NCBI RefSeq assembly: GCF_002222595.2 | Contig: NZ_CP022413.2 | Span: forward strand, 194,501-258,500 | Source: Blautia hansenii DSM 20583 | GTDB lineage: Bacteria; Bacillota; Clostridia; Lachnospirales; Lachnospiraceae | Direction: 5' to 3' | Length of the DNA stretch: 64,000 nucleotides | Part shown: positions 19,569 through 36,906 of the stretch, one piece after another | Position numbering within the stretch: the stretch's first letter is position 1 | How the letters are laid out: the number at the start of each line of letters is the position of its first letter | Program-made: the position numbers and the translations under genes | Notes under the pieces: model-generated | Told to the model about the DNA's origin: nothing | Databases searched by the model: none | The model's input: the letters and a program-made list of their open reading frames with translations, nothing else

Positions 19569-19569
19569 G

Positions 19570-20298: not shown

Positions 20299-20323
20299 AT
20301 TGAATATTTTATGCAAAAAAAAA

Positions 20324-20372: not shown

Positions 20373-20410
20373 TTGGACATACTTACTGATATTGAAAGGA
20401 GAGAAAGGAT

Positions 20411-20566: not shown

Positions 20567-20573
20567 ATTAGAG

Positions 20574-20620: not shown

Positions 20621-20632
20621 TGGAGGAAAGAG

Positions 20633-21691
20633 ATGTATACGATTACTTTAGAGGTAAATCAAATTTGTAATTTACGATGCGACTATTGCTATCTTGGAGA
20701 GAAAACAAATCAGATAATGCCCGAAGAAATTGCCTGTAAAGGGCTAGAAATAGCTTTTCTAAATGTAGAAAAGCATAAGGATAAAAGATTGTGGGTTGAT
20801 TTTGTAGGAGGAGAAGCGTTAATTAGTTTTGCACTTTTACAGAAATTGGTCGAATATATTGAAGAGGAGGCTGCGAAACGAACAATTGCGGTTTCTTATT
20901 CTATTACCACGAATGGTACAATTATGAATAATGAAGTTTTGGAATGGTTAGTAAATAATAGAGTTCATTTAAAATTGAGCATAGATGGAACAATGGAAAC
21001 TCATGACAGAAATCGCAAAACAAAACATGGTATAGGAAGTTATAGGAATATAATGCAGAACATAAGTTACTTTAGAGAGTACGAAGAGAGAACAAAACAA
21101 TATATTCAGGTCGCTCATGTAGTTACTCAGAATAATTACTGGGAAGCTTTTAAGTCTGTTAAACATCTAGTAGAAGATTTACATTTTAGTATCGTAGATT
21201 CTTCTATAGATGTTACACATAGGTGGACTGTTGAGCAATTAGATAAATTGGGGCAGGAATGGGAAAATATTTTATGTTATTATATAAAGAAAAAAGAGAA
21301 CGGACAAGCATTTTTGTGGGCACCAATATTGGATTTAAAAAAATATGGAGAAGAATACGTGAATTCCGGATTCTGTGGAGTGGGGTTAATCCAAATATAT
21401 GTGAAAACAGATGGTGGGATTTATGGATGTGCAGCTAATTTAGAGTCTAGTGGGTGTTTAGGAGATGTGGAGAAAGGTTTCTCCGTAAGAAAAATAAAAG
21501 AATATCGGGAATTAGCAAACCAAAGTAATGCTTGTTTAAAGTGTAATATACATGCCAAATGTCAGAGCTGTAAATGTATTATGAACAATCTATCATACAG
21601 TAATCAGATAAATGGATATAATCCAGATATGTGCTATTTTGAAAAGAAAAAAATAACTTTATGGAATAAGTATGATAAAAAAATAGGATAA
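20633..21691 (+). CDS. Radical SAM/SPASM peptide maturase A
   Basis: 352 residues from ATG 20633 behind GGAGGAAAG. The radical SAM cluster motif is C12-x3-C16-x2-C19 (CNLRCDYC), followed by FVGGEAL (GGE motif) and SIDGTMETHDRNR. The C-terminal SPASM region holds CGVGLI, GGIYGCAAN and the Cys-dense CLKCNIHAKCQSCKC for auxiliary Fe-S clusters. It is a close paralog along its length of the enzyme at 29166. It probably installs thioether or C-C links in precursor A, encoded 67 bases upstream. Reaction type is inference. Confidence 0.92.
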   Translation: MYTITLEVNQICNLRCDYCYLGEKTNQIMPEEIACKGLEIAFLNVEKHKDKRLWVDFVGGEALISFALLQKLVEYIEEEAAKRTIAVSYSITTNGTIMNNEVLEWLVNNRVHLKLSIDGTMETHDRNRKTKHGIGSYRNIMQNISYFREYEERTKQYIQVAHVVTQNNYWEAFKSVKHLVEDLHFSIVDSSIDVTHRWTVEQLDKLGQEWENILCYYIKKKENGQAFLWAPILDLKKYGEEYVNSGFCGVGLIQIYVKTDGGIYGCAANLESSGCLGDVEKGFSVRKIKEYRELANQSNACLKCNIHAKCQSCKCIMNNLSYSNQINGYNPDMCYFEKKKITLWNKYDKKIG

Positions 21692-21797
21692 AATAAACTT
21701 GATAAATTAGTAAAAATGCGTTATTTTTATTATGAGACATCATAAATACTTGATATGTTGGTATTTGATTAAAATGATAGTAAAAGTGGTGATGAAA

Positions 21798-22160
21798 ATG
21801 AACATAATTAGGAAGAAACGTAAGGAATTAGGAATTTCTCAAAGCGAATTAAGCGAAAAATTGGGAACCAGTCAGCAAACAATCAGTAGGATTGAGAAGG
21901 CGGGGATTGAAAACATACCTTGTAATCTTTTGATAAAATTGGCAGATATATTCCATGTTCCTATTGACATTCTTATTTATGAAGAACAGAATAATTTGTT
22001 TAGTTCACAGGGAGAAGAATTGTGGGAAATATATAAGCAACTCGATGAGGCAAATAAGACCACTTTGCTAACGCTTGGCAGAAGATTAAGTGAAGCACAA
22101 GTAGAAAATATGTTTAAAAGACAAATGGGTGATGAAAGTGATAAAAATAGCGATATGTGA
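21798..22160 (+). CDS. XRE-family transcriptional regulator
   Basis: About 120 residues; ATG 21798 (or 21792). The HTH is RKKRKELGISQSELSEKLGTSQQTISRIE, at the extreme N-terminus. The C-terminal half (QGEELWEIYKQLDEANKTTLLTLGRRLSE) is helical and resembles the tails of XRE regulators in peptide-sensing loci. It overlaps the next regulator gene by about 30 bases. It probably controls cluster genes. Confidence 0.85.
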   Translation: MNIIRKKRKELGISQSELSEKLGTSQQTISRIEKAGIENIPCNLLIKLADIFHVPIDILIYEEQNNLFSSQGEELWEIYKQLDEANKTTLLTLGRRLSEAQVENMFKRQMGDESDKNSDM

Positions 22161-22848
22161 TGACGAAAAATGTTTTATAGATACAATAGAAAAAATGTTA
22201 AAAGTTTATGAAAAGAAAAATGAGCAGGATTTTATAATAAAAAAATATACTAAGCCATTGCAGTTAATGGAATCTTTAAAAGAAGAATTCCAGATTTTCT
22301 TTTTAGATATAGAAATGCCAGCTATGGATGGTATGGAATTAGTGGATATTATAAGAAAGCATGATGAAAAGTCAATTGTTCTTTTTGTGTCTTCGCATAA
22401 TGAATTCCTGGGAGCTGGTTATAAGTATGACGTGCAAAATTTTATTACGAAGCCGATTACACAAGTCCAAATAAATTGTGAAATGAACCGGGCACTACGA
22501 AAACTGAATACATATGAACAGAGATATATTGCAGTAAAAAATGAAAAAGGTTATTTTAAACTATTTCTTTCAGATATCGAATATATTGAAACAATAAATC
22601 GGAAAGTACTGTTTCATTTAAGAAGTGGAAAGAAAGAAGCAGGATATTTTAAGATGAAAGATTTGGAAGAACGATTAGAACAGTTCTTCTTTGTTCGTTG
22701 CCATAACGGAATTATTGTCAATGTAGATTGCATAGAATCATTACATGATCTCACTGTAACACTTTATTCTGGAAACAAAATATATATTACACGTTCCAGA
22801 AAACAGAACCTTATGAAGAAAATGGCGGAACGGGGAGGAGCTGTTTAA
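22132..22848 (+). CDS. LytTR-family response regulator 2
   Basis: 238 residues from ATG 22132 (GTG at 22129 or 22138 are alternatives, ribosome site weak, overlap with XRE gene). Receiver: KIAICDDEKCF, FFLDIEMPAMDGMEL (phospho-Asp), FITKPI. LytTR domain: IEYIETINRKVLFHLR, FFVRCHNGIIVNVDCIESL. Its partner is the kinase gene that starts two bases after its stop. Together they form an Agr-type two-component system. Confidence 0.92.
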   Translation: MKVIKIAICDDEKCFIDTIEKMLKVYEKKNEQDFIIKKYTKPLQLMESLKEEFQIFFLDIEMPAMDGMELVDIIRKHDEKSIVLFVSSHNEFLGAGYKYDVQNFITKPITQVQINCEMNRALRKLNTYEQRYIAVKNEKGYFKLFLSDIEYIETINRKVLFHLRSGKKEAGYFKMKDLEERLEQFFFVRCHNGIIVNVDCIESLHDLTVTLYSGNKIYITRSRKQNLMKKMAERGGAV

Positions 22849-22849
22849 G

Positions 22850-24190
22850 GTGCACGGACAAGTTATATTAAAAAACATATTTTCTGTACTCAATATTTTA
22901 TTAATATTATATCTCATGCTCGGTGAAAGAAAAAGTAGAAGGTATAATGCTGTAAGGAGTAAGTATTCGTTAATTTTTTGCGTTGTGAGTTTAGTGCTTT
23001 TTAGAATGATGGCGAATGGAGCAGAACTACATATTGTATATAATTATGTAAGCATTATCATTATAGTTATGATTATAGGACATTTTCTATTCCAGTATAG
23101 TATAAAATATTGTTTATTACTTGGGAGCGTTTTCTTATCAGTTATACTTTTAGGTCAACTGATTAGTTGCATTTTTTTCTATAGATATAGCAGTGATGGA
23201 ATATTAGCAGATCTGTCTGAAAAATATCAAATCCATATGATTTTGATTGCTGAAATAGTAATTATTATTGGAAATTTAGTAATAAAAAAGATTGTAAATA
23301 AAATCCCATTATTACTTTCTGGACTGAACGTTGTTACAATTATTATTCCGTTGTTTATCAATATAGTAGTAATGGCAATATGTGCGGATCAGTTATATAA
23401 CGACAAAAGGATGATTGTTGACAATGTATGGTCAATAATAACTATTATAGCTGTGTGTATTGTGGTGTTTATGGGGACTGTTTGTAATATTGTTGTTCTT
23501 GAAAATTATTTGAATGTTAAAAAGATTGAGAATGAAAAGAACTTGCAGATTAGCGAGATGAGCTTACAATACGATTATTATATGAAACAATCCAATGATA
23601 TGGAAAACATTAGAAAGATTTCTCATGATATTAAAAATCATTTGGAGGCATTAAGAGGGAATGTGGATTATCAACAGAAGCAAGAATACATAGATGGAAT
23701 TGAAAGTAAGTTGGACATTTATCAAAGCTATTATAAAACAGGTAATGCATTTCTTGATAACCTATTACATGCAAAAAGACTGGAAGCTCTTGAAAAAAAG
23801 ATTGAGTTTAAAGTATTTGCAGACTTTACACCATTTAAGCGAGTTAAAAATGAAGATCTATGTGTGATTGTCTCAAATACAATCGACAATGCACTACGAG
23901 AATGCCAACTCATGAAAGCGGATAATCCGAAAATAGAATGTTTAGTACAGCTAAAGGCTAGAAAAATAAAAGGATTTCTATCTATTATATGTGAAAACAG
24001 TTTGAGAGAAAGCCAGGCAGAAGCTTTACGTGGAAATTTGGTAATGGAAACATCAAAGGAAGATAAAAAAAATCATGGATTTGGAGTGAAGAATATTAAG
24101 CGTGTTGTGAGAGAATATGGGGGAGAGGTATCATTTAATGTGGTGGATGATATGTTTTCAGTATCGATTCTTATTCCTATCGAAGTATAG
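22850..24190 (+). CDS. AgrC-like sensor histidine kinase (GHKL type)
   Basis: 446 residues from GTG 22850 behind GGGGAGGAG. About six or seven membrane helices (1-225) are followed by a dimerisation helix with the His box RKISHDIKNHLEAL, and a GHKL ATPase domain with NTIDNALREC (N box) and HGFGVKNIKRV (G box). This architecture senses a secreted peptide. No agrB or agrD lies nearby, so the matured cluster peptide may be its signal; that is inference. Confidence 0.92.
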   Translation: MHGQVILKNIFSVLNILLILYLMLGERKSRRYNAVRSKYSLIFCVVSLVLFRMMANGAELHIVYNYVSIIIIVMIIGHFLFQYSIKYCLLLGSVFLSVILLGQLISCIFFYRYSSDGILADLSEKYQIHMILIAEIVIIIGNLVIKKIVNKIPLLLSGLNVVTIIIPLFINIVVMAICADQLYNDKRMIVDNVWSIITIIAVCIVVFMGTVCNIVVLENYLNVKKIENEKNLQISEMSLQYDYYMKQSNDMENIRKISHDIKNHLEALRGNVDYQQKQEYIDGIESKLDIYQSYYKTGNAFLDNLLHAKRLEALEKKIEFKVFADFTPFKRVKNEDLCVIVSNTIDNALRECQLMKADNPKIECLVQLKARKIKGFLSIICENSLRESQAEALRGNLVMETSKEDKKNHGFGVKNIKRVVREYGGEVSFNVVDDMFSVSILIPIEV

Positions 24191-24196
24191 AATAAT

Positions 24197-24230
24197 AAGT
24201 GGTATTTACGAAAGTAAGTATCACTTTTTT
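24197..24230 (+). terminator. Terminator after the sensor kinase
   Basis: AAGTGGTATTTAC (24197-24209) pairs with GTAAGTATCACTT (24214-24226), GAAA loop, then T-run. Confidence 0.85.
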
Positions 24231-24328
24231 ATATCCAAATACGGTAAAAAAAACGCAATTTAGTCAAATATTGTTTTCTTTTTTACATTAAGATGTAAGA
24301 TAAAGAAAAAAGAAGAGGAGGCATGGGT

Positions 24329-25174
24329 ATGCGAAAAAAAATGAAACTATTTATTGCCATGGTATCAGTGGGGGCTTTATTGGGAACGATGCCAGTTATG
24401 GCAGCGGAACAGCCAGAACTTCCAACAAAAGTGCAGGATATTGCGAATGGTTCTGATGAACTTTACGGGGAAGGAGTTCCGATTGAGCATGGTACAAATC
24501 CAGATGAAAGATTTTCGTCTGGTGGTGTAGATCATACACATCAGTATATTGTTGCAAACACACTTAAAATTCTGAGCAATGATAAGGGAAATAGTGCATT
24601 CAATGGTGAGCTTAACTCATCTATTCTTATGGAGGCAACCGACTGGCCGGATAAACTTGGAAATGAAACAGATGCAGGAACTTTTGCAGGACACTTTTAT
24701 GATCCTGATACTGGAAAAAACTGGCTTGGTCAAAAATCTCCGACAGCTAGGACAAGAGCAGAGTCATATTTTCAGGCAGCAGTCAATGCGTATCGTGCAG
24801 GGGATGTACAATTGGCTATGTCAAACTTAGGAAAAGGCACCCATTATGTATCGGACTTAAACGAACCGCATCATGCATCGAACTTGACAGCAGTAAACAG
24901 CAATCATTCCGCTTTTGAAAAATATGTTGATAAAAACCGTAAATCTTACACAATAGCAGGAAATTCGTTTGGTTCCTCCGTATATACAACTGCATTAAAT
25001 ACATCAACAGGAGATTTGATGTATTCAGCAGCAAAATATGCGAAAGGGCTTGCGGCGGAGGCTCAAAAGGAAAGTTCCTATGATAGTGCAGGTAGAAAAT
25101 CTGTACAGCATGCTATACAGACAGTAACACAATATATGTATAAATTTGGTAAGGAAGTTGGAATTTATAAATAA
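24329..25174 (+). CDS. Secreted zinc-dependent phospholipase C family protein
   Basis: 281 residues from ATG 24329, seven bases after GAGGAGG. Signal peptide at about 1-25 (LFIAMVSVGALLGTMPVMA, Ala-type cleavage). The zinc ligand pattern of Bacillus/Clostridium PLC is present in order: HTHQYI, DWPD, TFAGHFYDP, GKGTHYVSDLNEPHHA, NHSAFEKYVD. The N-terminal Trp ligand that is residue 1 of mature Bacillus PLC has no obvious counterpart; about 40 residues separate the signal peptide from the first His. It has its own terminator and an upstream motif shared with precursor A. It may be a regulated exoenzyme; lipid activity is untested. Confidence 0.85.
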   Translation: MRKKMKLFIAMVSVGALLGTMPVMAAEQPELPTKVQDIANGSDELYGEGVPIEHGTNPDERFSSGGVDHTHQYIVANTLKILSNDKGNSAFNGELNSSILMEATDWPDKLGNETDAGTFAGHFYDPDTGKNWLGQKSPTARTRAESYFQAAVNAYRAGDVQLAMSNLGKGTHYVSDLNEPHHASNLTAVNSNHSAFEKYVDKNRKSYTIAGNSFGSSVYTTALNTSTGDLMYSAAKYAKGLAAEAQKESSYDSAGRKSVQHAIQTVTQYMYKFGKEVGIYK

Positions 25175-25178
25175 TGTT

Positions 25179-25224
25179 AAAAAGATCTTGGTATTGAGAA
25201 ATCAAATGCCAGGATCTTTTTAGA
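25179..25224 (+). terminator. Terminator after phospholipase gene
   Basis: AAAAAGATCTTGG (25179-25191) pairs with CCAGGATCTTTTT (25209-25221). Confidence 0.85.
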
Positions 25225-25320
25225 GTAAGCACTGAAATATATAAAATAAGCAAATTATATGGATAAATGCGAAAAGTTGGTTACAATTATTTTTAAAATA
25301 CAAGCAAAGGAGAAATATTA

Positions 25321-26484
25321 ATGTTTAGTTTTACGCTTTATATAACGACAGATTGTAACTTAAAATGCCAATATTGCTATGAGGACTATCATAACCACTA
25401 TCAGTTGAATGAAAAAACACTTGTGGATTCTTTGGAGTTTATTATGAATTATGGGGATAGAGGGAAAGTTTTGATTGATTTTTTAGGCGGTGAGCCTTTG
25501 CTGAAGAAAAACTTAATTTACCAAGCAGTATCCTATATCAAAAATAATTATCCGGAAAGGGAAGTAAAGTATTATATTACTACCAATTGTTCCCTAATGG
25601 ATGATCAGTTCATTGCATTTATGAAAGAATATCATTTTACAGTACGCCTCAGCTTTGATGGGAATAAAGAAACCCATGATTTAAACAGAATTGCAAAAGA
25701 TGGAGTTTCTTGCTATGGCAAAATTTTTGAGAATATCATGAAGGTAAAGGATAGTGGATTGAATTTTTCTGTAAGAATGACAGTCACAGAAAATACCATT
25801 CCGTTTATGTTCGAAAATATCCGTTACTTGCATGAGCATAATCTGGATAACATCTGTATGATTATGGATGTATATTTAAAAATATCTGATGAGCTGAAGG
25901 TAAAATTTGAAAAGCAGGTGGGACAAATTTTGCAGTACTATTTGAATGAGGCTGCAGCGGGCAGAGTTTTTACCATTGATCAATTTGATGGAAAAATGTT
26001 TAATATGCTGTGTGATTTTGGGAACTGCTTTGGCATGTGCGATGCTGGAATTGGAAACTTTAAGGTATTTCCGAATGGTCAGATATACCCATGCGGATTT
26101 CTTACAAGTAATGAAAAATATTGTATAGGAAATATCAAGGAAGGTATCGACATAAGAAGGGCAAAATTAATAGCAATATCTAATTTTGATAAAAACGATC
26201 CGAAATGTAAGGGATGCACAATCCGAGATTTTTGTCATGGTATGAAATGTGGGTATATGAATTTTGTCAATACAGGGAAGATTAATGTACCATCGGATGC
26301 AGAGTGCATCTTTGAACATATCTTTTATAAGGCAATGGTACAAATTCTTGAATATTATTTACAGCAGCCGATTGAAATAGTTAGAGAAAAATTAGGCATG
26401 TATATAGACTATATCCAGGAGGAAAATTTAAAATTCAGTGAGTTTGGTGAGAAGATTGCCCAGAGGTTAAGCAATGAAAAGTAA
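25321..26484 (+). CDS. Radical SAM/SPASM peptide maturase B
   Basis: 387 residues, ATG 25321 behind AAAGGAG. Cluster motif C12-x3-C16-x2-C19 (CNLKCQYC), FLGGEPLL, SFDGNKETHDLNR. The SPASM part shows CDAGIGNFKVFPNGQIYPCGF and CKGCTIRDFCHGMKCG, then a helical tail of ~80 residues. It shares the overall plan of maturases A and C but is more distant. It overlaps the ABC gene by 11 bases, so it is part of the operon running to 31.5 kb. Its substrate is unknown; no small ORF lies directly upstream. Confidence 0.9.
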   Translation: MFSFTLYITTDCNLKCQYCYEDYHNHYQLNEKTLVDSLEFIMNYGDRGKVLIDFLGGEPLLKKNLIYQAVSYIKNNYPEREVKYYITTNCSLMDDQFIAFMKEYHFTVRLSFDGNKETHDLNRIAKDGVSCYGKIFENIMKVKDSGLNFSVRMTVTENTIPFMFENIRYLHEHNLDNICMIMDVYLKISDELKVKFEKQVGQILQYYLNEAAAGRVFTIDQFDGKMFNMLCDFGNCFGMCDAGIGNFKVFPNGQIYPCGFLTSNEKYCIGNIKEGIDIRRAKLIAISNFDKNDPKCKGCTIRDFCHGMKCGYMNFVNTGKINVPSDAECIFEHIFYKAMVQILEYYLQQPIEIVREKLGMYIDYIQEENLKFSEFGEKIAQRLSNEK

Positions 26485-28156
26485 AAAAAAACGCCCATAT
26501 CTTGGATTTTTAAAAGAGTATGCTTTTAAGAAAAAGCTACTACCTTATTACATTTTAACGATAGCGATAATTGTGTTAACAGCTGGGGTTTCTTTGGTGC
26601 GTCCAGAGCTGCAGGGAAAAGTGATAGATGATTTGGGAAATCCGCATGGTACCAGTTTATCTGCATTTATGCTTCTTCTGGCGGTGTTCCTGGGAATGTT
26701 ACTTCTAAACTACCTTATGAATTATGTACAGCGTTATGTTGTGGCTGTCATATCGGAAGAGATAGCAGCAGATATGCGACAAAAGGTAGAAGATAAATTA
26801 TCAACAGTAAGCGTAAATTTTTTTGAGAAGATAAAGCTAAGTGACATTTTGCTAAAAGTGGATAAAGATGTTTCAGCAGTGAAACAATGTGGAATCACAA
26901 GCATTATTACACTGATTTCTAACATTGTTATCCTGGTAGTGGTTCCTCCGTATATGTTTTCTATCCATAAGGGAATTGCCGTATCTAATATTATCTTACT
27001 TGTCAGCGTTCCTTTTATCAGCAGAATACTAGGAAAATTGATACAGGAAACCAGTAGTCAAGTTCTGGAAGGATACAATAGTATCACCAGTGTGCTGACA
27101 AATACCTATGATAATTGGTTTATTACAAGACTCTTTCAATGTGGGCAATATGTGCATGATAGGTACTTTGAGAAAAACCAGAAATATAAAAAAGAGACGA
27201 ATCGCCAGAATTTATTGTACATATTGAATACATCTACGATACTTGTAATTCAGTTTATTGGAACAGTCATAATTTGGGTAGTAGGTGCACAAGAAGTATT
27301 TAAAGGGAATATGACCATAGGTACCATTATGGCATTGATGAATTACCAGACAATTATTATGAATCCTATTATTGGAATTGCACAATTTGCTAACGAGTAC
27401 CATACAGCCGTAGTTTCCTTAAAGGATATCAATGGTCTGCTTCAGTATCCGGATCAGAAACAAGGAGACAGAAAGAAAATAACAACAGTTAACAACATTT
27501 CCTTAGAAGCGATGAGTTTTTCTTATCCAGAGTCAAATAAGAAGGTATTTGACCGCCTCAATTTGAATTTTGAAAAAGGCACTCTTTACGGTGTTCATGG
27601 GAAAAGTGGACAGGGTAAAAGCACTTTGTTCAAAATTATAACAGGTGTGTATCAGCCGACAGAGGGAAAAGTAGTTGTAAATAACACAGATTTACAGGAA
27701 TTAGATATTAACAGCTATTGGGAAAATACAGGATATGTTATGCAGCGTACACAGTTCTTCAATGATACAGTAAGACGGAACATGGGATTACTACATACTG
27801 TTTCGGAGGAAGAAATGGATATGGTGGCAAAGTGCTTGGATTTGTATGATGAAATGCATACTTTAGAAATGGTATGGGATACCGAGATAAAGATAGATCC
27901 ATGCAATTTCTCAGAGGGACAAATGCGACGTTTGGATATTATGAGGAATATTTTGAAAAATTCACAAATTCTGATTTTTGACGAAGCGACAGCAAATATT
28001 GATGAAAAGCGAAGAGGGCGTTTTTATCAATTATTGCATGAATTATCAAGGGAGAAAATTATTATTTTTTCTACGCATAATCTGGAAGAATTGCGAGAAG
28101 CGGATATTATCGTGGATTTGGAAAAGATGCATATAAGGCAGGTGAGTGAAAAGTGA
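26474..28156 (+). CDS. ABC exporter, fused membrane and ATPase domains
   Basis: 560 residues, ATG 26474. Six membrane helices (about 20-310) are followed by a nucleotide-binding domain with GKSGQGKSTL (Walker A), a variant signature FSEGQMRRLD in place of LSGGQ, and ILIFDEATANID (Walker B). No N-terminal C39 peptidase domain, so leader removal must be by another protease; the subtilisin-like gene that overlaps its 3' end is the natural candidate. Likely exports the matured peptides. Confidence 0.92.
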   Translation: MKSKKKRPYLGFLKEYAFKKKLLPYYILTIAIIVLTAGVSLVRPELQGKVIDDLGNPHGTSLSAFMLLLAVFLGMLLLNYLMNYVQRYVVAVISEEIAADMRQKVEDKLSTVSVNFFEKIKLSDILLKVDKDVSAVKQCGITSIITLISNIVILVVVPPYMFSIHKGIAVSNIILLVSVPFISRILGKLIQETSSQVLEGYNSITSVLTNTYDNWFITRLFQCGQYVHDRYFEKNQKYKKETNRQNLLYILNTSTILVIQFIGTVIIWVVGAQEVFKGNMTIGTIMALMNYQTIIMNPIIGIAQFANEYHTAVVSLKDINGLLQYPDQKQGDRKKITTVNNISLEAMSFSYPESNKKVFDRLNLNFEKGTLYGVHGKSGQGKSTLFKIITGVYQPTEGKVVVNNTDLQELDINSYWENTGYVMQRTQFFNDTVRRNMGLLHTVSEEEMDMVAKCLDLYDEMHTLEMVWDTEIKIDPCNFSEGQMRRLDIMRNILKNSQILIFDEATANIDEKRRGRFYQLLHELSREKIIIFSTHNLEELREADIIVDLEKMHIRQVSEK

Positions 28157-29154
28157 GGATAGGTGTGTTGGATTCCAATGGATCTTTTGATAATCCTTTT
28201 TTTCTGGATAAGAAAATTGTAAAAATAGACTGCAAGTGGAATGGTCAGGAATACAGTAAAGATACCTTTGGATTTACCCATGCGGAATATGTCTGTTCTT
28301 TTATTTTAAAGGAAAACCCGGAAGCGGAAATTGTTCTGGTACCCATTGTGAGGAAGAACAAAAAGAGTACGGTTCTGGATATGATAGAAGGTATTGAATT
28401 ACTGATAGAGGAACAGGTAGATATAATTAATATGAGTATGGGAGATGAGTACAAGTATCACAAAGAAATCGAGGAAGTGTGTAGGGCAGCTATAGAAAAG
28501 GGGATTTTGATTGTGGCTGCATATTCCAATCAGAAAGCAGAAGCAACCTATCCAGCTTCATTCCCCTTTGTAATGGGAGTAAGATGCCTGGATATGGAAA
28601 AACCGGTACAAGTGCTTCAATATGATGAAAAGAAAAATGATGTAATTTTTTCTTGTGGGCTTTTCTTTTTATATCACTTAGGAATACCGGTTCTACATCC
28701 AGGAAATAGCCTTGCCTGTGCTGTGGTAACAGGCTATTTGAGTAACTATGAGAAACAGTATCAACAGGCAATTTTACAGTTTACTCTCAACACTTTGAAT
28801 CACTATTATCCATATCAAACATTGAAGCAGAAACAATGTTATTTTCTAACGAACCGTATAGAAGAACCTTTAGAGCAGCGTTTCATACGGGAAGTTACGA
28901 GAACAGAGAGATGTGATACTTTTGAAAGTGGAATGGAAAAATTGAGAAATAAAAAAACAGCAGAGCAGTATCCGGTGCTATTTATTGATCACAACAATTA
29001 TCAGGAAATATGTGAGTATAAAGAGAGAATCAGGATATATGCCATGGAACATCCGAAGACAGAAATTGTTTTGCGATATCCCTTATTTAATATGGTGGAA
29101 AGATTGGATTTCCAGAAGAAAACAAATAGAAATTTGAACCAATTTACAGTTTAG
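28153..29154 (+). CDS. Subtilisin-like (S8) serine protease, cytoplasmic
   Basis: 333 residues from GTG 28153, overlapping the exporter stop by four bases. The S8 triad is visible as VLDSNG (Asp7), FGFTHAEYV (His43) and HPGNSLACAVVTG (Ser186), with IINMSMG and the oxyanion Asn in VAAYSNQ (Asn126). No signal peptide or prodomain. The C-terminal ~130 residues are not protease-like and may bind substrate. Between exporter and maturases it is the likely leader peptidase acting before or during export. Specificity is unknown. Confidence 0.85.
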   Translation: MRIGVLDSNGSFDNPFFLDKKIVKIDCKWNGQEYSKDTFGFTHAEYVCSFILKENPEAEIVLVPIVRKNKKSTVLDMIEGIELLIEEQVDIINMSMGDEYKYHKEIEEVCRAAIEKGILIVAAYSNQKAEATYPASFPFVMGVRCLDMEKPVQVLQYDEKKNDVIFSCGLFFLYHLGIPVLHPGNSLACAVVTGYLSNYEKQYQQAILQFTLNTLNHYYPYQTLKQKQCYFLTNRIEEPLEQRFIREVTRTERCDTFESGMEKLRNKKTAEQYPVLFIDHNNYQEICEYKERIRIYAMEHPKTEIVLRYPLFNMVERLDFQKKTNRNLNQFTV

Positions 29155-29165
29155 GAGGCAGGAAA

Positions 29166-30272
29166 ATGTATACATTGTCATTAGAGATTATAAATAAGTG
29201 CAATTTGAATTGTACTTACTGCTACCTGGGCGAGAAGAAAAATACATACATGAGTTTAGAAACGGCTCAAAAGGTAATCGATATTGCTGTGCATGAAGCA
29301 AATAAGCAGCATGATCGGACACTTATGGTTTACTTTATTGGAGGGGAACCTCTTATGGCATTTAATCTGATAAAAGATGCTGTAGATTATACGAAGAAAA
29401 AATGCCAGGAAACAAACTTAATATGCAAGTTCAGTACTACGATAAATGGAACGTTAGTTACAGATGAGATAATTGATTTTTTTGTGGAAAATACATTTGA
29501 GGTGAAGGTGAGTTTAGATGGTCCTGAGTATGTTCAGAATTTGAACAGGAGAGACTATGCAGGAAATGGAAGTTTTGAAAAAATCATGAAGAATCTTCCG
29601 TTATTGAGAAAATATGAGCAGGAAACAGGAAATCAGATTTCGGTAGCCAGTGTTGTGACAAGTAATAACTATCAATATTATGCAGAAAGTTTCCAGTTTT
29701 TGATTGATTTAGGAATTAAAAAATTAGAATCAGGAATTGATTATTATTGCTCCTGGAGTGATGAGCAGATACAGGGATTACGAGAGCAGATAGAGAAAGT
29801 ATTTGGCTTATATAAAGCATATATACAAAAAAATCAAGAAGTAATCTTCTGGAATCTCTGGGAACAATATCTGAAATCATTCCTGATTCCATGTCCATTT
29901 TATGCATGTAAGGCGGGTTTGACAACTTGCTATGTAACAACGGATGGTGGGATTTATACTTGTGCGGAACTTCCAGAATTTAAAATCGGTTCTGTAGAAG
30001 TCGGGTTGGATGTTCCGAGGATTCGAGAGATTATTTACCTAGAGGATCAAGAGGATACAATGTGTAAAGAATGTCAATATATTAGACATTGTAAAACAAG
30101 AGGCTGTCAGGTGGCAAATTATGAAATTCACCAAAATGTATATCAACCTATAAAAGTGAATTGTGAAGTGACGAAGTGGATGTATCATCTGATTCAAACA
30201 AACTTAACTGAAAAACAGCTTGAAAAGCTGAAACAAGAATATGAAAGGAGATATTTACGTCATGGAAAGTAA
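29166..30272 (+). CDS. Radical SAM/SPASM peptide maturase C
   Basis: 368 residues, ATG 29166 behind TTAGGAGGCAGG. Cluster motif C12-x3-C16-x2-C19 (CNLNCTYC), FIGGEPLMAF, SLDGPEYVQNLNR. SPASM: CKAGLTTCYVTTDGGIYTCAE, then CKECQYIRHCKTRGCQ. It aligns with maturase A from the first residue (YT-[IL]-[TS]-LE) through the SPASM, so the two are paralogs, matching the two paralogous precursors. It overlaps maturase D by 11 bases. Confidence 0.92.
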   Translation: MYTLSLEIINKCNLNCTYCYLGEKKNTYMSLETAQKVIDIAVHEANKQHDRTLMVYFIGGEPLMAFNLIKDAVDYTKKKCQETNLICKFSTTINGTLVTDEIIDFFVENTFEVKVSLDGPEYVQNLNRRDYAGNGSFEKIMKNLPLLRKYEQETGNQISVASVVTSNNYQYYAESFQFLIDLGIKKLESGIDYYCSWSDEQIQGLREQIEKVFGLYKAYIQKNQEVIFWNLWEQYLKSFLIPCPFYACKAGLTTCYVTTDGGIYTCAELPEFKIGSVEVGLDVPRIREIIYLEDQEDTMCKECQYIRHCKTRGCQVANYEIHQNVYQPIKVNCEVTKWMYHLIQTNLTEKQLEKLKQEYERRYLRHGK

Positions 30273-31521
30273 GATGAATGAGTTTATTAAGATAACTGAG
30301 GGAGAAAAAGTGGCTTTAATTGATCCGGTAGGAAAAGTCTGCCTGGGGGTAAGTAAAAGATTTGCAGACAATTTAGATAAACCAGAGTTTCAGGAAAAGT
30401 TATTCCCTGTATGGAAGCAGCAAACTGAATTTATAAAGGAAATAGAAAATAATCATGAGAAAATCAATACGGTATATTTGATGGTAACCAGGAAATGTAA
30501 TATGAATTGTGATTTTTGTGCGATCAGTGCAAACGACAAGCTTCGTCCAGAAAAAGAATTTAAGCTGGAGGATATACAGAATAAGGTGATTCCGTTCTTT
30601 CAGAAAAATAAACCACATAAAATGATTCTTACAGGTGGAGAGCCACTGATTAAAGATCAAATTGTGGAAATTGCAAAAGCATTAAGAAATGGTTTGACTT
30701 GCCCCATAACACTGCAGAGCAATGGTCTTGCAATCACCAGAGAATTAACAGAACAACTCAAAGGATATATAGACGAAATTGATTTCAGTACCATGCACAT
30801 GTTTGGAACGCCTGAAAAGGAGCAGCAGCTAATTAATCATATCGAGATGTGTCAGCAAGCTGGAATAAAGGTGGTTCTTAGCTTTATTTATGAGAAAACT
30901 AATGAAGTGGATTTGTATCGATTGATTGATATAGCTGTTAAATATGACATTAATGTTCTTTTTAATATTGTTTCATCCGTGGGTAGGGCGAAAGAAAACT
31001 CTAAAATTTTATCAGATATGGAACATCTTGATATGAACCTGAAGATAGCAAAATATATATTGAAACAGGGATACGAGAATAAAAAAATAGGAGAAGCCTT
31101 TTACCAAAGGATTCAGGTAAGAAATTCTTGTGGGGGTTATGGAAAAGTTATGGCAATTTTCCCGGAAGGCGATATTTATATGTGTCAGTGTATGGAAAAG
31201 AATCAGGTTCGAATGGGCAATATACTTACAGATAGTTCTGAAAAGATTTTGAAAACTCAAGACTGTTTGCTGAAGGAAGATGAAATAAAGCAGTTATTTT
31301 GTGTGGACTATAAAGAAATATGTAAGGAATGCGATTATCGTTATATATGTGGTGGGAAATGTATGGCTTCGGAAGGAGAATATGACCGTAAATGTATTTT
31401 TGCAAAAGCAATGTTTAAATATGTGCTATTTTATTACAAACAGCAGGATAAAAATAGAGAAAAACTTGAAAATTATGTTCAATATCTTGAAAAAATAAAG
31501 AAATGTATGGGAGAAAGATAG
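30262..31521 (+). CDS. Radical SAM/SPASM enzyme D with N-terminal extension
   Basis: 419 residues from ATG 30262 behind AAAGGAG. About 70 residues precede the cluster motif C79-x3-C83-x2-C86 (CNMNCDFC); this part (ITEGEKVALIDPVGKVCLGVS) may be a peptide-recognition module. LTGGEPLI follows. SPASM: CGGYGKVMAIFPEGDIYMCQC and CKECDYRYICGGKC. It is clearly a different subfamily from A, B and C. A second modification step on the same peptides is a reasonable guess. Confidence 0.9.
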   Translation: MESKMNEFIKITEGEKVALIDPVGKVCLGVSKRFADNLDKPEFQEKLFPVWKQQTEFIKEIENNHEKINTVYLMVTRKCNMNCDFCAISANDKLRPEKEFKLEDIQNKVIPFFQKNKPHKMILTGGEPLIKDQIVEIAKALRNGLTCPITLQSNGLAITRELTEQLKGYIDEIDFSTMHMFGTPEKEQQLINHIEMCQQAGIKVVLSFIYEKTNEVDLYRLIDIAVKYDINVLFNIVSSVGRAKENSKILSDMEHLDMNLKIAKYILKQGYENKKIGEAFYQRIQVRNSCGGYGKVMAIFPEGDIYMCQCMEKNQVRMGNILTDSSEKILKTQDCLLKEDEIKQLFCVDYKEICKECDYRYICGGKCMASEGEYDRKCIFAKAMFKYVLFYYKQQDKNREKLENYVQYLEKIKKCMGER

Positions 31522-31548
31522 TGAATCCATGTAGGAAGAAAAAAATGC

Positions 31549-31594
31549 AAAATAGACATAAGTTGTAGTCGTTAAATTAGAAAAGGGATATATT
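31549..31594 (+). promoter_or_regulatory. Probable promoter of precursor B
   Basis: TAGACAT (31553-31559) as in the precursor A promoter, followed by TTGTAG (31563-31568) and an AT-rich -10-like stretch at about 31587-31594. Exact boxes are uncertain. Confidence 0.4.
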
Positions 31595-31634
31595 TAAAAT
31601 TGTTTTACATACGGAAAATTAAGGAGGTAATAGT

Positions 31635-31760
31635 ATGAATGAAAAGTTGGAACTGACAGAGGAAGAAGTTAATGTGTACAGTGATGATTGCGGAAAAATA
31701 CAGGTAGATTGTTTAAATGATTGTATTGATGGAAGTGCATGGCTAAGTATCGAATCTTAA
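31635..31760 (+). CDS. RiPP precursor peptide B, paralog of precursor A
   Basis: 41 residues, ATG 31635 behind AAGGAGGTAATAGT, a near-ideal ribosome site. Leader KLELTEEEVNVYS aligns with ITEEEIESYS of precursor A. Cys19, Cys26 and Cys30 have the same C-x6-C-x3-C spacing, and CLNDC matches CLTDC. The C-terminal tails differ (IDGSAWLSIES here). It lies directly after maturase D and before the system 2 maturase, but homology assigns it to system 1. Confidence 0.82.
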   Translation: MNEKLELTEEEVNVYSDDCGKIQVDCLNDCIDGSAWLSIES

Positions 31761-31811
31761 TAGAGATTTACGATGACATGATGATTAAGGAGATACGGTT
31801 TAGGTAACAAG

Positions 31812-31839
31812 TAACTTTAAAGTTAAAAAATACTATAAT
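31812..31839 (+). promoter_or_regulatory. Palindrome-containing promoter of system 2
   Basis: TAACTTTAAAGTTA (31812-31825) is a perfect 14-bp palindrome. TATAAT is at 31834-31839. AAAGTTAAAA recurs at 35132-35141 just ahead of a TATATT box before the Cys-repeat peptide gene. Confidence 0.5.
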
Positions 31840-31868
31840 TTTATGTAGGCAACAAGGAGGAAGTGTAC

Positions 31869-33176
31869 ATGAAATTTTCTAAATTTAATCTGATAATCAA
31901 AGAAGGGAATAAAAGAGTTTTATTTAATACGCTTTCAGGAGAGTGTTTTAAAATATCTACAGGTGTTGAAGAAATAATTGATAATAATCTACCAGATCAA
32001 CTTAATAAAGAATTATATGATGATTTTTTGAAAAAAGGAATTATTGTGGATGATCAGGTTGAAGAAAATAGATATTTTAGCTACATTCAAAACCAAACAA
32101 GATTCAATAATAGTGTATTATCGGCAACAGTACTGCTAACTTGGGCATGTAATTTAGCTTGTATATATTGCTATGAGGGGGCAGGATGTAGAACAACAAG
32201 AATGAATAAAGCAACCGCAGATAGATTTATAGGGTTTATGATAAACCAAGCAAAAGCAAGAAATTCAAAAAGTATGTATATTAATCTGTTTGGAGGAGAG
32301 CCATTACTTAATATAGAATGTGGATTTTATATTTTAGATGCATTAAAGAAATTCTGTGCAGAAAAAAATATAGAGTTTGCATCAGGGATAATAACGAATG
32401 GAACTTTATTAACAGCAGAGATAGTAAGCCAATTAATAAATTATAATTGTCAGCAGATACAAATAACTCTTGATGGTATGCCTGATACGCATAATGCAAG
32501 AAGAAAATATAAGGATGGAAAAGGTTCATTTGAACAGATTATTTCGGCTTTAGAATTGCTAAACAATAAATGTGCCGATATACATACGGTTATAAGAATC
32601 AATGTGGATAAGAATAATTTGGATGAAGTGAGTACACTTTTGGAATATCTTGGAATTAATGGAAAAGGTCTAACAAATTGCAATGTTGACTTTGGAATCG
32701 TTAGAGGTTCTACGCAAGCATGTTCTGCATATTCAGGGAATTGTTTAAGTGAAAGTATTGTAGGAGAGGTATTGAGTAAATTATGGAGTAAGGCTGAAAT
32801 GGAAGGGTTTACTTTATATACAAAACCATTTCATAGATGGATTTATTGTGGATTATATGCTGATAGTCAGTTTACTGTCACTCCCAATGGTGAATTATAT
32901 AAATGTTGGGAACATGCAGGGGATGAGCAACATTTGATGGGGAATATTAATGAGAACGGTAATATTGATAACATAAAATATTCATTTTATGATTGGATGT
33001 CTCATAACCCATTAGAGAATGAAGAATGTAAAGAATGTGTATATTTACCAGCTTGTGGTGGTGGATGTGGGGTGGTTAGTTATAACGAAACTAATAGTTA
33101 CCACTCGAAAGGGTGCTTTAAAGTAAAAGGCGTACTTGAAAAGCAGGTGTTACGGTATTTTAAGGGGAAAATATAA
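31869..33176 (+). CDS. Radical SAM/SPASM peptide maturase E (system 2)
   Basis: 435 residues from ATG 31869, eight bases after AGGAGG. The N-terminal ~85 residues (KFSKFNLIIKEGNKRVLFNT, LKKGIIVDD) form the small winged peptide-recognition-like region common in this subfamily. The cluster motif is C94-x3-C98-x2-C101 (CNLACIYC), then LFGGEPLLN and TLDGMPDTHNARR. SPASM: CGLYADSQFTVTPNGELYKCW, then CKECVYLPACGGGCG. The same N-terminal plan is seen in the truncated gene at 63779. Likely substrate is the eleven-Cys peptide at 35237. Confidence 0.92.
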   Translation: MKFSKFNLIIKEGNKRVLFNTLSGECFKISTGVEEIIDNNLPDQLNKELYDDFLKKGIIVDDQVEENRYFSYIQNQTRFNNSVLSATVLLTWACNLACIYCYEGAGCRTTRMNKATADRFIGFMINQAKARNSKSMYINLFGGEPLLNIECGFYILDALKKFCAEKNIEFASGIITNGTLLTAEIVSQLINYNCQQIQITLDGMPDTHNARRKYKDGKGSFEQIISALELLNNKCADIHTVIRINVDKNNLDEVSTLLEYLGINGKGLTNCNVDFGIVRGSTQACSAYSGNCLSESIVGEVLSKLWSKAEMEGFTLYTKPFHRWIYCGLYADSQFTVTPNGELYKCWEHAGDEQHLMGNINENGNIDNIKYSFYDWMSHNPLENEECKECVYLPACGGGCGVVSYNETNSYHSKGCFKVKGVLEKQVLRYFKGKI

Positions 33177-33193
33177 AACTGGGGGTAATATAT

Positions 33194-33451
33194 ATGGAAG
33201 CTTGCACTAAAGGAACAGTAATTTCAACTAATAGATTATGGTGGTTGAAAATTAATAAAAAACCTATTCGAACACATTTATTAGATGGAGCTAATTTTCC
33301 AACGGTTATTACTGTGCAATATAGTGTTTCTGGTGTTAATTATAAAAAAAGAAAATTTATTGGAGTAGGTACTAGTTGCCCAAAAGAGGGGGAAGAACTA
33401 TCAGTATTCTATCTTATGGATAATCCTAAAAAAGCAAGAATAAAATTGTGA
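33194..33451 (+). CDS. Small DUF3592-like beta-rich protein
   Basis: 85 residues, ATG 33194 behind CTGGGGGTAATA. VITVQYSVSGVNYKKRKFIG followed by PKEGEELSVFYLMDNPKKARI resembles the core of DUF3592 proteins but without their membrane helices. Sandwiched between a maturase and an exporter gene, it may be an immunity or assembly factor. Function not known. Confidence 0.6.
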   Translation: MEACTKGTVISTNRLWWLKINKKPIRTHLLDGANFPTVITVQYSVSGVNYKKRKFIGVGTSCPKEGEELSVFYLMDNPKKARIKL

Positions 33452-33473
33452 TTAGTAATCTGAGGGAGAAGTT

Positions 33474-35120
33474 ATGGCAAGCATTTTTAAAATGTGTGGA
33501 AAGTATCTGATAAAAAATAAGTATAGCGTGATTTGTTATGGGGTGCTGTGTCTTACAAGTAGTATGTTTTCTATGATTTCTCCCTATATAAGCGGCAATT
33601 TTATTGATTATCTGATAGTAGCGGATAATATCAGTAAAATTTATAGATATTGCTTTGCCTTTTTCGGGCTTTTTGTTTTTAATCAGTTGATAGGGTATAT
33701 TGTTAATAGAGTGTATATAAAGATGCAAACTCAAATGGGCTATGACTTGAACAGTGATGTGATACGCCACATACAACATTTGCCAGTTTCATTTTTAAAA
33801 AAGCAGAATATGGCTTATTTAAACCAAAGAGTCAACAATGATTCTAATCAGGTTATTACATTTTGCATCAATATTGTACAAGGGATATTAATAAATAGTT
33901 TAAAACTTTTACTGTCCATTTTTGTATTGGTTCAATTTAGTTGCAATATTACATTGCTATTTATAGCCATAATATGTGCTTATGCATTATCGTATAAGAT
34001 ATTAAAGAAAATCCTTTTTAAAGCACAATTTATTTTGACAGAAGCACAAGCAAATTATTTTTCAAAATTATTCGAGCAATTTGATAATATTCTCTTTGTA
34101 AAAATGCAGGCTATATATGAAGCTTTTTTAAGTCGGTTAAAGAAAGAGTTTCAAAATATTTTGAAAGTAAGTCTTCAATATCAAAAGATTTCGTATCTAT
34201 TTTCAAGTTTAGATTCTTTGATAATGTCTTTAGCTCAAATAGGAATTTTTATAATGGGTGGGGCATTAGTTATTAGGGGTAAACTTAGTGTAGGTCAATT
34301 AACAATTATGCTGAGTTACTTTGGTATAATGATGGAAGCTTCGAGATATTTTTTTTCATTAACAAAGACAATACAGGACAATAAAGTGGCATATACAAGA
34401 TTAAAGCAGATATTAGATTTAGAAAGTGATGAAAACGCTGGGGTAGAGTTAAAGGATATTAGCCAAATAAGATTAAAGAATATAATGTTCTGTTATGATA
34501 AGAAATGTATATTCCGTGATATTAGTTTAGAATTTAAAAAAGGGAAAATATATTCCATCATCGGAAAAAATGGAATAGGGAAAAGCACTTTGGTAGATTT
34601 GATTATAGGGTTCTATAATAGAGAATATGCAGGTGAGATATGTTATGATGCTTTATCTTTAGATCAAATTGATATTTATAAAACAAGAAAAATGTGTTTT
34701 GGAATATGTGAACAGGAACCGGTGTTATTAGCGGATACGGTAAGATATAATGTATCAATGGATAGTGAAGACAGCATAGATTTAAAGCGATTGTTTTATA
34801 TAGCAAAAAAGATAAATTTGTATTCATTCATAGAAAGTCTGCCAAAGAAATTAGAGACCATTATTGGAGAAAAAAATTCAAATTTGTCTGGAGGAGAAAA
34901 ACAAAAACTTTCTATATTAAGGGTATTATATAAAAATCCACCGGTAATTATTTTAGATGAGCCGACATCTGCATTAGATGAAGAGAGCATAAGATGTTTA
35001 CAAGTCTACTTAAATCAAATAAAAAGAGATAAAATAATTATTTTAATATCGCATAATTCAGATTTTATATCTATATCAGACGAAATCGTAGATTTGGATA
35101 AATTAGATATGGACGTATAG
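33474..35120 (+). CDS. ABC exporter of system 2
   Basis: 548 residues, ATG 33474 behind GAGGGAGAAG. Six membrane helices (about 15-310) then an ATPase domain with GKNGIGKSTLVD (Walker A), LSGGEKQKLSILR (signature) and VIILDEPTSALDE (Walker B). No C39 peptidase domain. It is closest in layout to other peptide exporters; likely carries the Cys-repeat peptide. Very AT-rich compared with the element backbone, suggesting separate acquisition. Confidence 0.9.
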   Translation: MASIFKMCGKYLIKNKYSVICYGVLCLTSSMFSMISPYISGNFIDYLIVADNISKIYRYCFAFFGLFVFNQLIGYIVNRVYIKMQTQMGYDLNSDVIRHIQHLPVSFLKKQNMAYLNQRVNNDSNQVITFCINIVQGILINSLKLLLSIFVLVQFSCNITLLFIAIICAYALSYKILKKILFKAQFILTEAQANYFSKLFEQFDNILFVKMQAIYEAFLSRLKKEFQNILKVSLQYQKISYLFSSLDSLIMSLAQIGIFIMGGALVIRGKLSVGQLTIMLSYFGIMMEASRYFFSLTKTIQDNKVAYTRLKQILDLESDENAGVELKDISQIRLKNIMFCYDKKCIFRDISLEFKKGKIYSIIGKNGIGKSTLVDLIIGFYNREYAGEICYDALSLDQIDIYKTRKMCFGICEQEPVLLADTVRYNVSMDSEDSIDLKRLFYIAKKINLYSFIESLPKKLETIIGEKNSNLSGGEKQKLSILRVLYKNPPVIILDEPTSALDEESIRCLQVYLNQIKRDKIIILISHNSDFISISDEIVDLDKLDMDV

Positions 35121-35131
35121 TATAAGTTATG

Positions 35132-35150
35132 AAAGTTAAAACGGTATATT
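35132..35150 (+). promoter_or_regulatory. Likely promoter of the Cys-repeat peptide gene
   Basis: AAAGTTAAAA followed by TATATT at 35145-35150, about 85 bases before the start codon. The first ten bases match the system 2 maturase promoter. Confidence 0.4.
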
Positions 35151-35236
35151 AAAGGTTGGCATATGTTATTACATATTGTGACTAATATATTATTTACATA
35201 ACGAAGAGCATACTTATTCAAGAAAGGAGAAATGCT

Positions 35237-35497
35237 ATGGGTAGCGAATACATAGGAAATGGATATGGTCAGTCTAGAGCTGGCGGATGTGTTGGAGGCG
35301 TTGGATGTTTAGCTGATGTAGGGTGTGGTGGAAATGCCTGCGGAGCAGCAGTATGTGGAGCTAATGTTTGTGGAGTAGATGGTTGCGGAGCAGCAGCATG
35401 TGGAATTAATGCTTGCCCACTTAATGGATGCGTGGGCGATGCATGTGCAGCAAACCTTACTCCGTTGCCAGGACCGTTTTCAAATAATGATAACTAA
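35237..35497 (+). CDS. Eleven-cysteine repeat RiPP precursor (system 2)
   Basis: 86 residues, ATG 35237 behind AAAGGAG. After a Gly/Tyr-rich N-terminus come Cys at 18, 24, 30, 35, 40, 45, 50, 55, 60, 65 and 70: two six-residue steps, then eight five-residue steps, mostly of the form C-G-x-x-x. The tail is ANLTPLPGPFSNNDN. There is no conventional acidic leader; the conserved N-terminal 15 residues may serve recognition. A separate promoter and strong terminator indicate high expression. Regular Cys spacing behind a SPASM maturase suggests repeated thioether formation on a helical scaffold; this is inference. Confidence 0.85.
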   Translation: MGSEYIGNGYGQSRAGGCVGGVGCLADVGCGGNACGAAVCGANVCGVDGCGAAACGINACPLNGCVGDACAANLTPLPGPFSNNDN

Positions 35498-35546
35498 TAA
35501 ATAGAAAATAATGATATATTAGTAAAAAAGTATGCGATTCGTACTG

Positions 35547-35598
35547 AGCCTTGAAAGGGTGCAATTCTACAGCAACCTTTCAAGGCTTAATTTTTTTA
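35547..35598. terminator. Strong terminator after Cys-repeat gene
   Basis: AGCCTTGAAAGG (35547-35558) pairs with CCTTTCAAGGCT (35576-35587), then seven T. It also lies at the 3' end of the convergent AAA gene. Confidence 0.92.
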
Positions 35599-36906
35599 TC
35601 ACTGCAAAAAGATTTTAGAAACCTCGATGTTGAAATGAGAGCACGCAGGAAAAACTACAACATTATTTAGAAGAGTCAAAAATCCTATACCTTTTCCAGC
35701 TTTCACTTCTATCAAATATCGGGTGGAAGAAGATAGGCTTTGTGCCACAAAGTCAATTTCTCCGCCACGGTAGGTAGCAAAAGCAGGGGTTTCAAAGGAA
35801 ATTTCCTGTGGAAAATCCTGGCGTTTCTTCAGATTGATATAGACATAATTTTCATTTAATGTGCCTGCAAGTACACGGGAATCGGTACCGGTACGTGTCA
35901 GATAATAGTTTGCCAGTCCCATATCCATGAAGTAGCAGCGGCTTGCGGACTTAAAATCCAGAATATCCATTTCTGTTATTTTGGCACAGAATCCGATGAT
36001 TCCGGAAAAGTACAGCCAGCTAATGGCACGGTTGCAGGTAGCCTTTGAAATATTGCTGGAGTAGTCTTTGGTTACCAGTTTTTGCAATTCTTCGCTGATG
36101 CTGTCTTCTGAAAATCCTTTCTTTTCACGGTTTAAAATACGGCAGATGGAAAAGAAAATATGGGTAAACACTTTGGTATCCAAAATATCCGTAAAATAGC
36201 GAATGGATTCATTGGTAAAGGTATCAATGATTTTTACAAGTTCGCCTTGTGCTTTTACGATGCTTTGGTTCTCCAAATAGTTTTCTACTACTTTGGGATA
36301 GCCACCAATTTGGCAGTACAGCTCATAGGTTTCTTTTAAGTGATCATAGACCTCGGCTTTAGATGAATGGAGAGGTATTTTTTTATAATCGTCATATAGG
36401 CTTTGGTCATAGGCCATCAAAAATTCTTCAAAAGAAAGTGTGTAGATAGTAAGCTTTGTGACATCACCGCTGGAATAACGGAATTCTGGATCATAAATCC
36501 GTCCAAGGTAGCTTCCTGTGATGATGAAATGGGCTTTAAAGTGACGTGTAAACTCCCGGATACGGTTATAAATTTCGGAAGACTCCTGGATTTCGTCAAT
36601 AATGATGACGGTATCTTCAGAATCAATAAAGTCCGGTTCATATAACTGGAAGGCATCGTGGAGAGGATGCTCCCGCCGTTTTGTTCCAGGTGTCCAGTCG
36701 GTTGCCTGTTTATAACATTCCATAAACTGTTTGCCGCTTAATTCAAACAGGTTAATATAAATTTTGTGTTTGTAGTTTTCGTCAGCGAATTTCTGTATCA
36801 GGTAGGTTTTTCCAACCTGACGGGCTCCACCGACTTCCAGGGTACTATGACCTCCTTCATTTTTCCAATCCAGAAGACGGTCATAGACAAAACGCTTCAG
36901 ATACAT
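35599..36906 (-). CDS. AAA+ ATPase with DUF4143 domain
   Basis: 435 residues from ATG 36906 (a GTG at 36912 is possible). N-terminal AAA_14 ATPase: EVGGARQVGKTYLI (Walker A), DTVIIIDEIQES (Walker B), FIITGSYLGRI (sensor). C-terminal DUF4143 domain with a nuclease-like ending (YRGGEIDFVAQS, IEVKAGKG). These proteins are frequent, sporadic accessory genes; the biological role is unsettled. Monocistronic here. Confidence 0.88.
   Translation of the reverse strand: MYLKRFVYDRLLDWKNEGGHSTLEVGGARQVGKTYLIQKFADENYKHKIYINLFELSGKQFMECYKQATDWTPGTKRREHPLHDAFQLYEPDFIDSEDTVIIIDEIQESSEIYNRIREFTRHFKAHFIITGSYLGRIYDPEFRYSSGDVTKLTIYTLSFEEFLMAYDQSLYDDYKKIPLHSSKAEVYDHLKETYELYCQIGGYPKVVENYLENQSIVKAQGELVKIIDTFTNESIRYFTDILDTKVFTHIFFSICRILNREKKGFSEDSISEELQKLVTKDYSSNISKATCNRAISWLYFSGIIGFCAKITEMDILDFKSASRCYFMDMGLANYYLTRTGTDSRVLAGTLNENYVYINLKKRQDFPQEISFETPAFATYRGGEIDFVAQSLSSSTRYLIEVKAGKGIGFLTLLNNVVVFPACSHFNIEVSKIFLQ

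Follow-up and report, generated by a model that had tools for sequence, protein, structure and literature searches.

The peptide CefA and the radical S-adenosylmethionine (SAM)/SPASM maturase CefB, encoded in a 64,000-nucleotide stretch of the Blautia hansenii DSM 20583 genome (NZ_CP022413.2, positions 194,501 to 258,500; hereafter the window), resemble several described systems for ribosomally synthesized and post-translationally modified peptides (RiPPs). Freyrasin, a CX3D ranthipeptide made from PapA by the related SPASM maturase PapB, shares with CefA many Cys, each followed at a short distance by an Asp-type residue; PapB bridges CXnD with n from 1 to 5. CefA differs in having CX2[D/N] instead of CX3D, mostly with Asn, and 8-11 units against the six of freyrasin, and CefB lies below the cut-off of the PapB model (149.4 bits against 340) and has an extra N-terminal domain. 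Streptosactin (GggA/GggB) is described with rings Cys25-Ser28 and Cys31-Gly34 (a review elsewhere prints Cys15; PMC8172795, PMC13361665). These are unnested four-residue rings from Cys(i) to i+3, installed in order, like those we propose for CefA, but there are only two, the acceptors are Ser and Gly, and CefB reaches 61.6 bits on the GggB model (cut-off 650). Acceptors are Ala, Asn, Arg and Lys in RumC1 and Glu, Asn, Arg and Arg in RumC2 (PMC6779426). CteB, the thioether maturase of the SCIFF peptides and nearest solved maturase structure to CefB, binds its leader through an N-terminal RiPP recognition element (RRE; PMC8326336); CefA, however, is not a six-Cys-in-45-residues peptide, and CefB falls below the SCIFF maturase cut-off (TIGR03974, 117.8 bits against 425). 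NxxC peptides (NxxcA/NxxcB) join Cys to an Asn beta-carbon with four residues per ring, as proposed for CefA, but their Asn precedes the Cys and the ring is single.

The CefA/CefB family and its C-x-x-[D/N] motif

The translated cefA product has 86 residues and 11 Cys, at positions 18, 24, 30, 35, 40, 45, 50, 55, 60, 65 and 70, that is, two steps of six followed by eight of five. A run of nine Cys at a single spacing never arose when these residues were shuffled 100,000 times, the longest shuffled run being seven (4 shuffles). The regularity that the initial annotation had read from the letters, with Cys30-Cys70 exactly five apart and two earlier Cys at six-residue steps, is confirmed by both translation and shuffling, and the unit described there as mostly C-G-x-x-x does open with C-G in six of the nine five-residue units. 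CefA scored 63.2 bits against NCBIfam model NF038108 ('Cys-every-fifth RiPP peptide CefA'; curated cut-off 30), and the gene scored 41.1 bits in a six-frame search of the genome. The same model matched 14 of 14 members of our alignment A4, CefA included; it is not wholly specific, with a match in 2 of 14 control genomes searched in six frames, above the cut-off in one. The gene opening at 31863/31869, 2.1 kb upstream in the same locus, scored 660.5 bits on NF038107 (maturase CefB; cut-off 600). One of the nine NF038107 matches listed for this genome exceeds that cut-off, against none in the 14 control genomes, 13 of which gave weak matches. CefA is a real, non-random member of a RiPP precursor family and, to judge by these profile scores, is with CefB one more case of a family already catalogued in NCBIfam; a homolog from Paenibacillus donghaensis (P0018) bears the CefA name. 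A search of the open literature, with subscription journals largely beyond its reach, found no publication on CefA/CefB chemistry. The present analysis adds the C-x-x-[D/N] rule with its register, as well as relatives with seven- and five-residue steps (L016, below) just outside the curated models.

A collection of 48 CefA-like proteins was divided into a 16-sequence set (15 plus the window peptide, with the 14 rows of A4 as a subset), a distant set of 14, and 19 excluded because they were truncated, frame-shifted, chimeric or near-duplicate (P0002, P0004-P0009, P0012, P0014, P0016, P0019, P0021, P0150, P0151, P0158, P0159, P0162, P0165 and P0169). Counts take every Cys, so that P0003, P0146 and the first L016 peptide each contribute one that lies outside the array. 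Among the 180 Cys of the 16 sequences, the residue at +3 was Asn in 81 cases, Asp in 46, Ala in 43 and another in 10 (Asp/Asn in 127 of 180), and Asp/Asn occurred 1, 0 and 1 times at +1, +2 and +4. Counting backwards from the last Cys, the +3 letters are N, D (15/16), N, N, A, D, N (15/16), A, N (15/16) and then D in 13 and N in 3. All eight Asp/Asn of the array in the window's CefA stand at +3, which none of 200,000 shuffles achieved. We gave no weight to a period of four (Asp in units 2, 6 and 10) or three (Ala in units 4 and 7), as 6 of the 56 ways to place three Asp give an equally spaced triple. The distant set, several of whose members have Gly-Gly leaders, two a long N-terminal domain and one 21 Cys, has D/N at +3 in 109 of 171 cases, and the five members scanned against NCBIfam all exceed the CefA cut-off.

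The locus L016, in genome G845 of the same class, encodes two peptides with a Y[IL]GNAY leader followed by a CefB relative (574 bits, cut-off 600). The peptides score 25.3 bits on NF038108, below the cut-off, and their Cys alternate at seven- and five-residue steps. The seven-residue units have Asn at +3 in 14 of 16 cases and Lys in the other 2, with Gly or Ser two before the next Cys in 16 of 16; the five-residue units have Asp/Asn at +3 in 8 of 16 and otherwise Lys, Glu or His. Since the spacing differs and C-x-x-N is kept, the conserved feature is the motif and not the spacing, and a five-residue rule does not extend to these homologs. Homologs without regular spacing, which the initial annotation had named as evidence against its proposal, thus exist, but they point to a deeper C-x-x-N rule. 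In locus L010 (Clostridiaceae bacterium M8S5), a CefB of 657.8 bits is preceded by three precursors. One contains seven Cys, of which six are spaced by five residues, with K, D, E, D, D, D at +3; the other two contain three Cys each, with K, K, N at +3 in one and D, H, K in the other. Directly shown are the C-x-x-[D/N] motif, the pairing of the CefA and CefB gene families and, as a prediction, the fold of CefB.

In overlapping genome draws, CefB exceeded its cut-off in 1 of 20 genomes of the genus, 1 of 299 of the family, 1 of 392 of the order, 1 of 391 of the class and 1 of 398 of the phylum, the present genome each time. The class draw contained G845 as a second genome (573.7 bits, under 600), and in the order of G845 none of 33 genomes exceeded the cut-off. 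A protein collection held 328 CefB relatives at E 1e-60 or better; among the matches listed (best 120 of 328), four are named CefB at source, from Paenibacillus, Thomasclavelia, Paramaledivibacter and a Lachnospiraceae metagenome-assembled genome (MAG). On these counts CefB looks widely but thinly spread. The DNA inspected of L011 and L012 (Muribaculum and Bacteroides MAGs; CefB-like at 31% and 25%) held no CefA-like array.

The CefB maturase and candidate thioether rings

The CefB alignment took in 95 homologs out of the 120 listed (of 328 found), together with two locus proteins. In these 98 sequences the CX3CX2C cysteines (C96, C100, C103) and SPASM C329, C348, C389, C398, C402 and C418 are invariant, and C392 is kept in at least 90%; by its residues, CefB has the Cys set of a radical SAM/SPASM peptide maturase. 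Its structural model shows a strand/helix domain before the radical-SAM motif. Residues 6-434 match structure 5why, which we take to be CteB, with 391 aligned, in a match list that mostly tests residues 77-434 and so does not speak against families missing from it. The PapB model aligns to CefB no earlier than residue 86, which leaves CefB with an additional N-terminal domain. Pfam matches of the whole protein at E 1, the N-terminal domain not being searched on its own, included no PqqD/RRE family. The suggestion that a maturase with its own recognition domain adjoins the peptide thus stands as to the SPASM enzyme in the locus, while the candidate recognition domain agrees with 5why but has no Pfam RRE match.

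We infer leader binding, the bond, its carbon, the order and processivity of closure, and export, as follows. The N-terminal recognition domain of CefB would bind the short CefA leader (EYIGNGY), and its radical-SAM/SPASM chemistry would link each Cys(i) sulfur to the residue at i+3. Every C-x-x-X unit would then form its own four-residue ring, separate from the others in the row, and the ABC (ATP-binding cassette) exporter would carry the product out. Units 1, 4 and 7, which have no Asp/Asn, may hold free thiols, a disulfide or an alpha-carbon link. A repeated thioether ladder is the most economical reading and our best inference: that Cys(i) is joined to i+3, through Cbeta or Calpha, seems quite probable, and the narrower, freyrasin-like form with S-Cbeta bonds at Asp/Asn would have about an even chance. 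The rings count 13 atoms for S-Cbeta and 12 for S-Calpha.

The choice of carbon is where the evidence divides. The Asp/Asn bias and the enzyme scores together favour Cbeta over Calpha. Weighing against a Cbeta bond at Asp/Asn are the invariant Ala at +3 in two CefA units, which keeps S-Calpha alive, and the Lys, Glu and His at +3 in the L010 and L016 relatives; both favour Calpha, RumC acceptors being so varied. A sactipeptide-type ladder, an extended streptosactin in which sulfur is joined to the alpha-carbon of +3 whatever its side chain, would make all 11 Cys bridgeable, and we hold it possible but rather doubtful. It has a precedent in the two unnested S-Calpha rings of streptosactin, said to be formed processively (PMC8172795, PMC13361665); the acceptors of RumC1 and RumC2 (PMC6779426) overlap the A/N/D/K/E/H alphabet of the CefA family; and +3 is the lowest-entropy position in the 16 sequences even with Ala counted (1.89 bits). 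However, if the side chain were irrelevant the strong D/N bias would be left unexplained, and the mostly Gly +1 position is as constrained as +3 or more in the distant set (entropy 2.63 against 2.67) and in L016 (1.37 against 1.65). The enzyme also fits this ladder poorly: the GggB model gives CefB its 61.6 bits (74 and 61 for the L010 and L016 maturases), the RumMC model is missing from the best 25 of the 73 models matching CefB, and the nearest structure is that of CteB, whose product CteA has one described thioether, now assigned as a Cgamma bond. A stapler ruled by distance and blind to side chains, joining every Cys to whatever stands at +3 (Asn, Asp or Ala; Lys, Glu or His in relatives), we consider unlikely.

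Two other accounts dispense with a Cys(i)-to-i+3 thioether. Pentapeptide repeats have the form A[D/N]LXX, with Leu or Phe filling the core of the coil, and CefA could instead be a disulfide-bonded, metal-binding or other non-thioether Cys-rich solenoid of this sort, with D/N structural and CefB modifying it otherwise. Read around the Cys, its units resemble x-[AVIL]-[DN]-[AGVLF], and the last one closes with N-[LFI] in 16 of 16 sequences. Yet position +4 is mostly Ala or Gly (124 of 180) and not a core-filling Leu or Phe, the 7/5 steps of L016 would disrupt a five-residue coil, and none of the 14 CefA members matched a Pfam pentapeptide family at E 10, under filters that remove most hits weaker than about 0.1, so that we rejected membership in those families. 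AlphaFold2 gave CefA no fold (pLDDT, the predicted local distance difference test, 39.6); a solenoid was sought in that disordered model, which is uninformative, as a thioether-bearing peptide cannot be modelled that way. We regard such a solenoid as improbable. Still less credible, to the point of being very improbable, is a different connectivity, with the acceptor preceding the Cys (N-x-C) or the Cys linked to another unit. A constant five-residue spacing makes +3 and -2 the same residue, so most homologs cannot discriminate, but Asn goes with the Cys before it both in the seven-residue units of L016 and at the end of the array, where an Asn follows the last Cys.

Array length and genomic setting

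The initial annotation had also seen a 15-bp periodicity in the coding DNA and supposed that the array may expand or contract. At lag 15, the DNA of codons 30-75 had an identity of 0.528 against 0.553 expected from same-residue codon reshuffling (p=0.91), so the periodicity is explained by the protein repeat and DNA-level 15-bp expansion is not supported. Lags 30 and 60 gave no excess either; lag 45 gave 0.656 against 0.597 (p=0.011 uncorrected, one of four lags tried), a modest excess that fits the 80% identity of two 45-nt copies, 35324-35368 and 35369-35413. Tandem Repeats Finder reported just 2.5 imperfect copies (score 48). As for length, the wider family ranges from 3 Cys (L010) to 21 (P0149), which bears out variation, but frequent change is not seen: the array has 11 Cys in 12 of the 16 sequences, 12 in three and 10 in one (P0020, whose N-terminus differs from the others). 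The one shortened gut allele, P0007 (72 aa), lacks the 15 residues of units 5-7, and each half of it matches a different gut allele; known from three sequences and a single contig no longer than 1,819 bases, it may be an assembly artefact or chimera rather than a natural contraction.

The features of the locus are collected in Table 1. Metagenome copies of CefB such as P0024 begin at ATG 31869 (MKFSKFNL). No peptidase C39 domain appeared among the Pfam matches (E 1) of the exporter. The fold of the hairpin after cefA has -25.7 kcal/mol (z -6.17); it is absent from the list of a simple terminator scan restricted to loops of 3-8.

Table 1. Features of the cefA locus and two further genes of the region (window coordinates)
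Feature	Position	Strand	Remarks
Zinc-dependent phospholipase C-like protein	24323-25174		PF00882, 52.7 bits
S8 protease nearest QhpE	28153-29154		98 bits, cut-off 165
cefB, radical SAM/SPASM maturase	31869..33176	+	Open reading frame (ORF) opens at GTG 31863
Small DUF3592-like protein	33194..33451	+	PF12158, 22.2 bits, slightly below cut-off 25.3
ABC exporter (membrane and ATPase)	33474..35120	+	PF00664, PF00005
Ribosome-binding site AGGAG	35225..35229	+	7 nt 5' of cefA ATG; read from sequence
cefA	35237..35497	+	Leader 1-17 (with EYIGNGY); 11-Cys array 18-74; conserved tail NLTPLPGPF
Nine Cys codons (Cys30-Cys70)	35324..35458	+	Exact 15-nt steps, through end of last unit C-A-A-N-L
Terminator-like hairpin, then TAATTTTTTT	35545..35597	+	3' of cefA; fold of 35543-35600

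Blautia massiliensis GD8 (L009) carries the locus at 99.86% identity across 13.8 kb. Directly after cefA (window 35690; L009 13828 onward), GD8 carries about 10.7 kb of extra DNA encoding a resolvase-type recombinase (L009:17860-18516), past which the window's own flank resumes at 95% identity. A search for plasmid or viral carriage of the locus found no match. Seven metagenome proteins (P0024, P0030, P0031, P0040, P0080, P0103, P0136) carry part of CefB (94-100% identity) fused in frame elsewhere, with partners comprising the S8 protease, a sortase-like protein, another radical SAM protein, a response regulator, 18016-18144, the GD8 extra DNA and an AraC-like domain; they represent genuine deletions at an unstable locus or else chimeras formed during assembly.

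More widely, positions 18000-36000 form a low-GC RiPP hotspot (2-kb bins of 0.30-0.35; average outside 15-36 kb, 0.40); other low-GC bins lie at 2-4 and 60-64 kb. Besides a second ABC exporter at 26474, the hotspot has four further radical-SAM genes, at 20606, 25321, 29166 and 30241; those at 20606, 25321 and 29166 score 191-206 bits on the PapB model, below its cut-off of 340. Two small ORFs, 20411-20566 and 31635-31760, share an acidic leader, [IL]TEEE[IV]..YS, with three Cys each and no NCBIfam match, and are perhaps precursors for neighbouring maturases; in P0019 a leader resembling that of 31635-31760 is fused to a CefA tail. A further maturase cluster starts at the edge of the window (63695 to end; L013:2195-6045), with a radical SAM gene nearest TIGR04463/Clo7bot (277/272 bits, below cut-off) followed by ABC-exporter-like and histidine-kinase-like ORFs.

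Meaning of the proposed ladder

As a guess, the CefA product is a competition or signalling peptide. By the C-x-x-X rule, each ring would shift the mass by -2.016 Da, which comes to about -16 with eight rings and about -22 with eleven. Were CefB blind to side chains, it would build ladders of 11 same-size rings, and of up to about 20 in relatives, and an S-Cbeta bond at the Ala units would then amount to lanthionine formation by a radical enzyme with no dehydration step. The repetitive ladder, if real, would be a natural system for testing how a single radical enzyme deals with many near-identical sites, and would also provide a modular scaffold on which to staple peptides.
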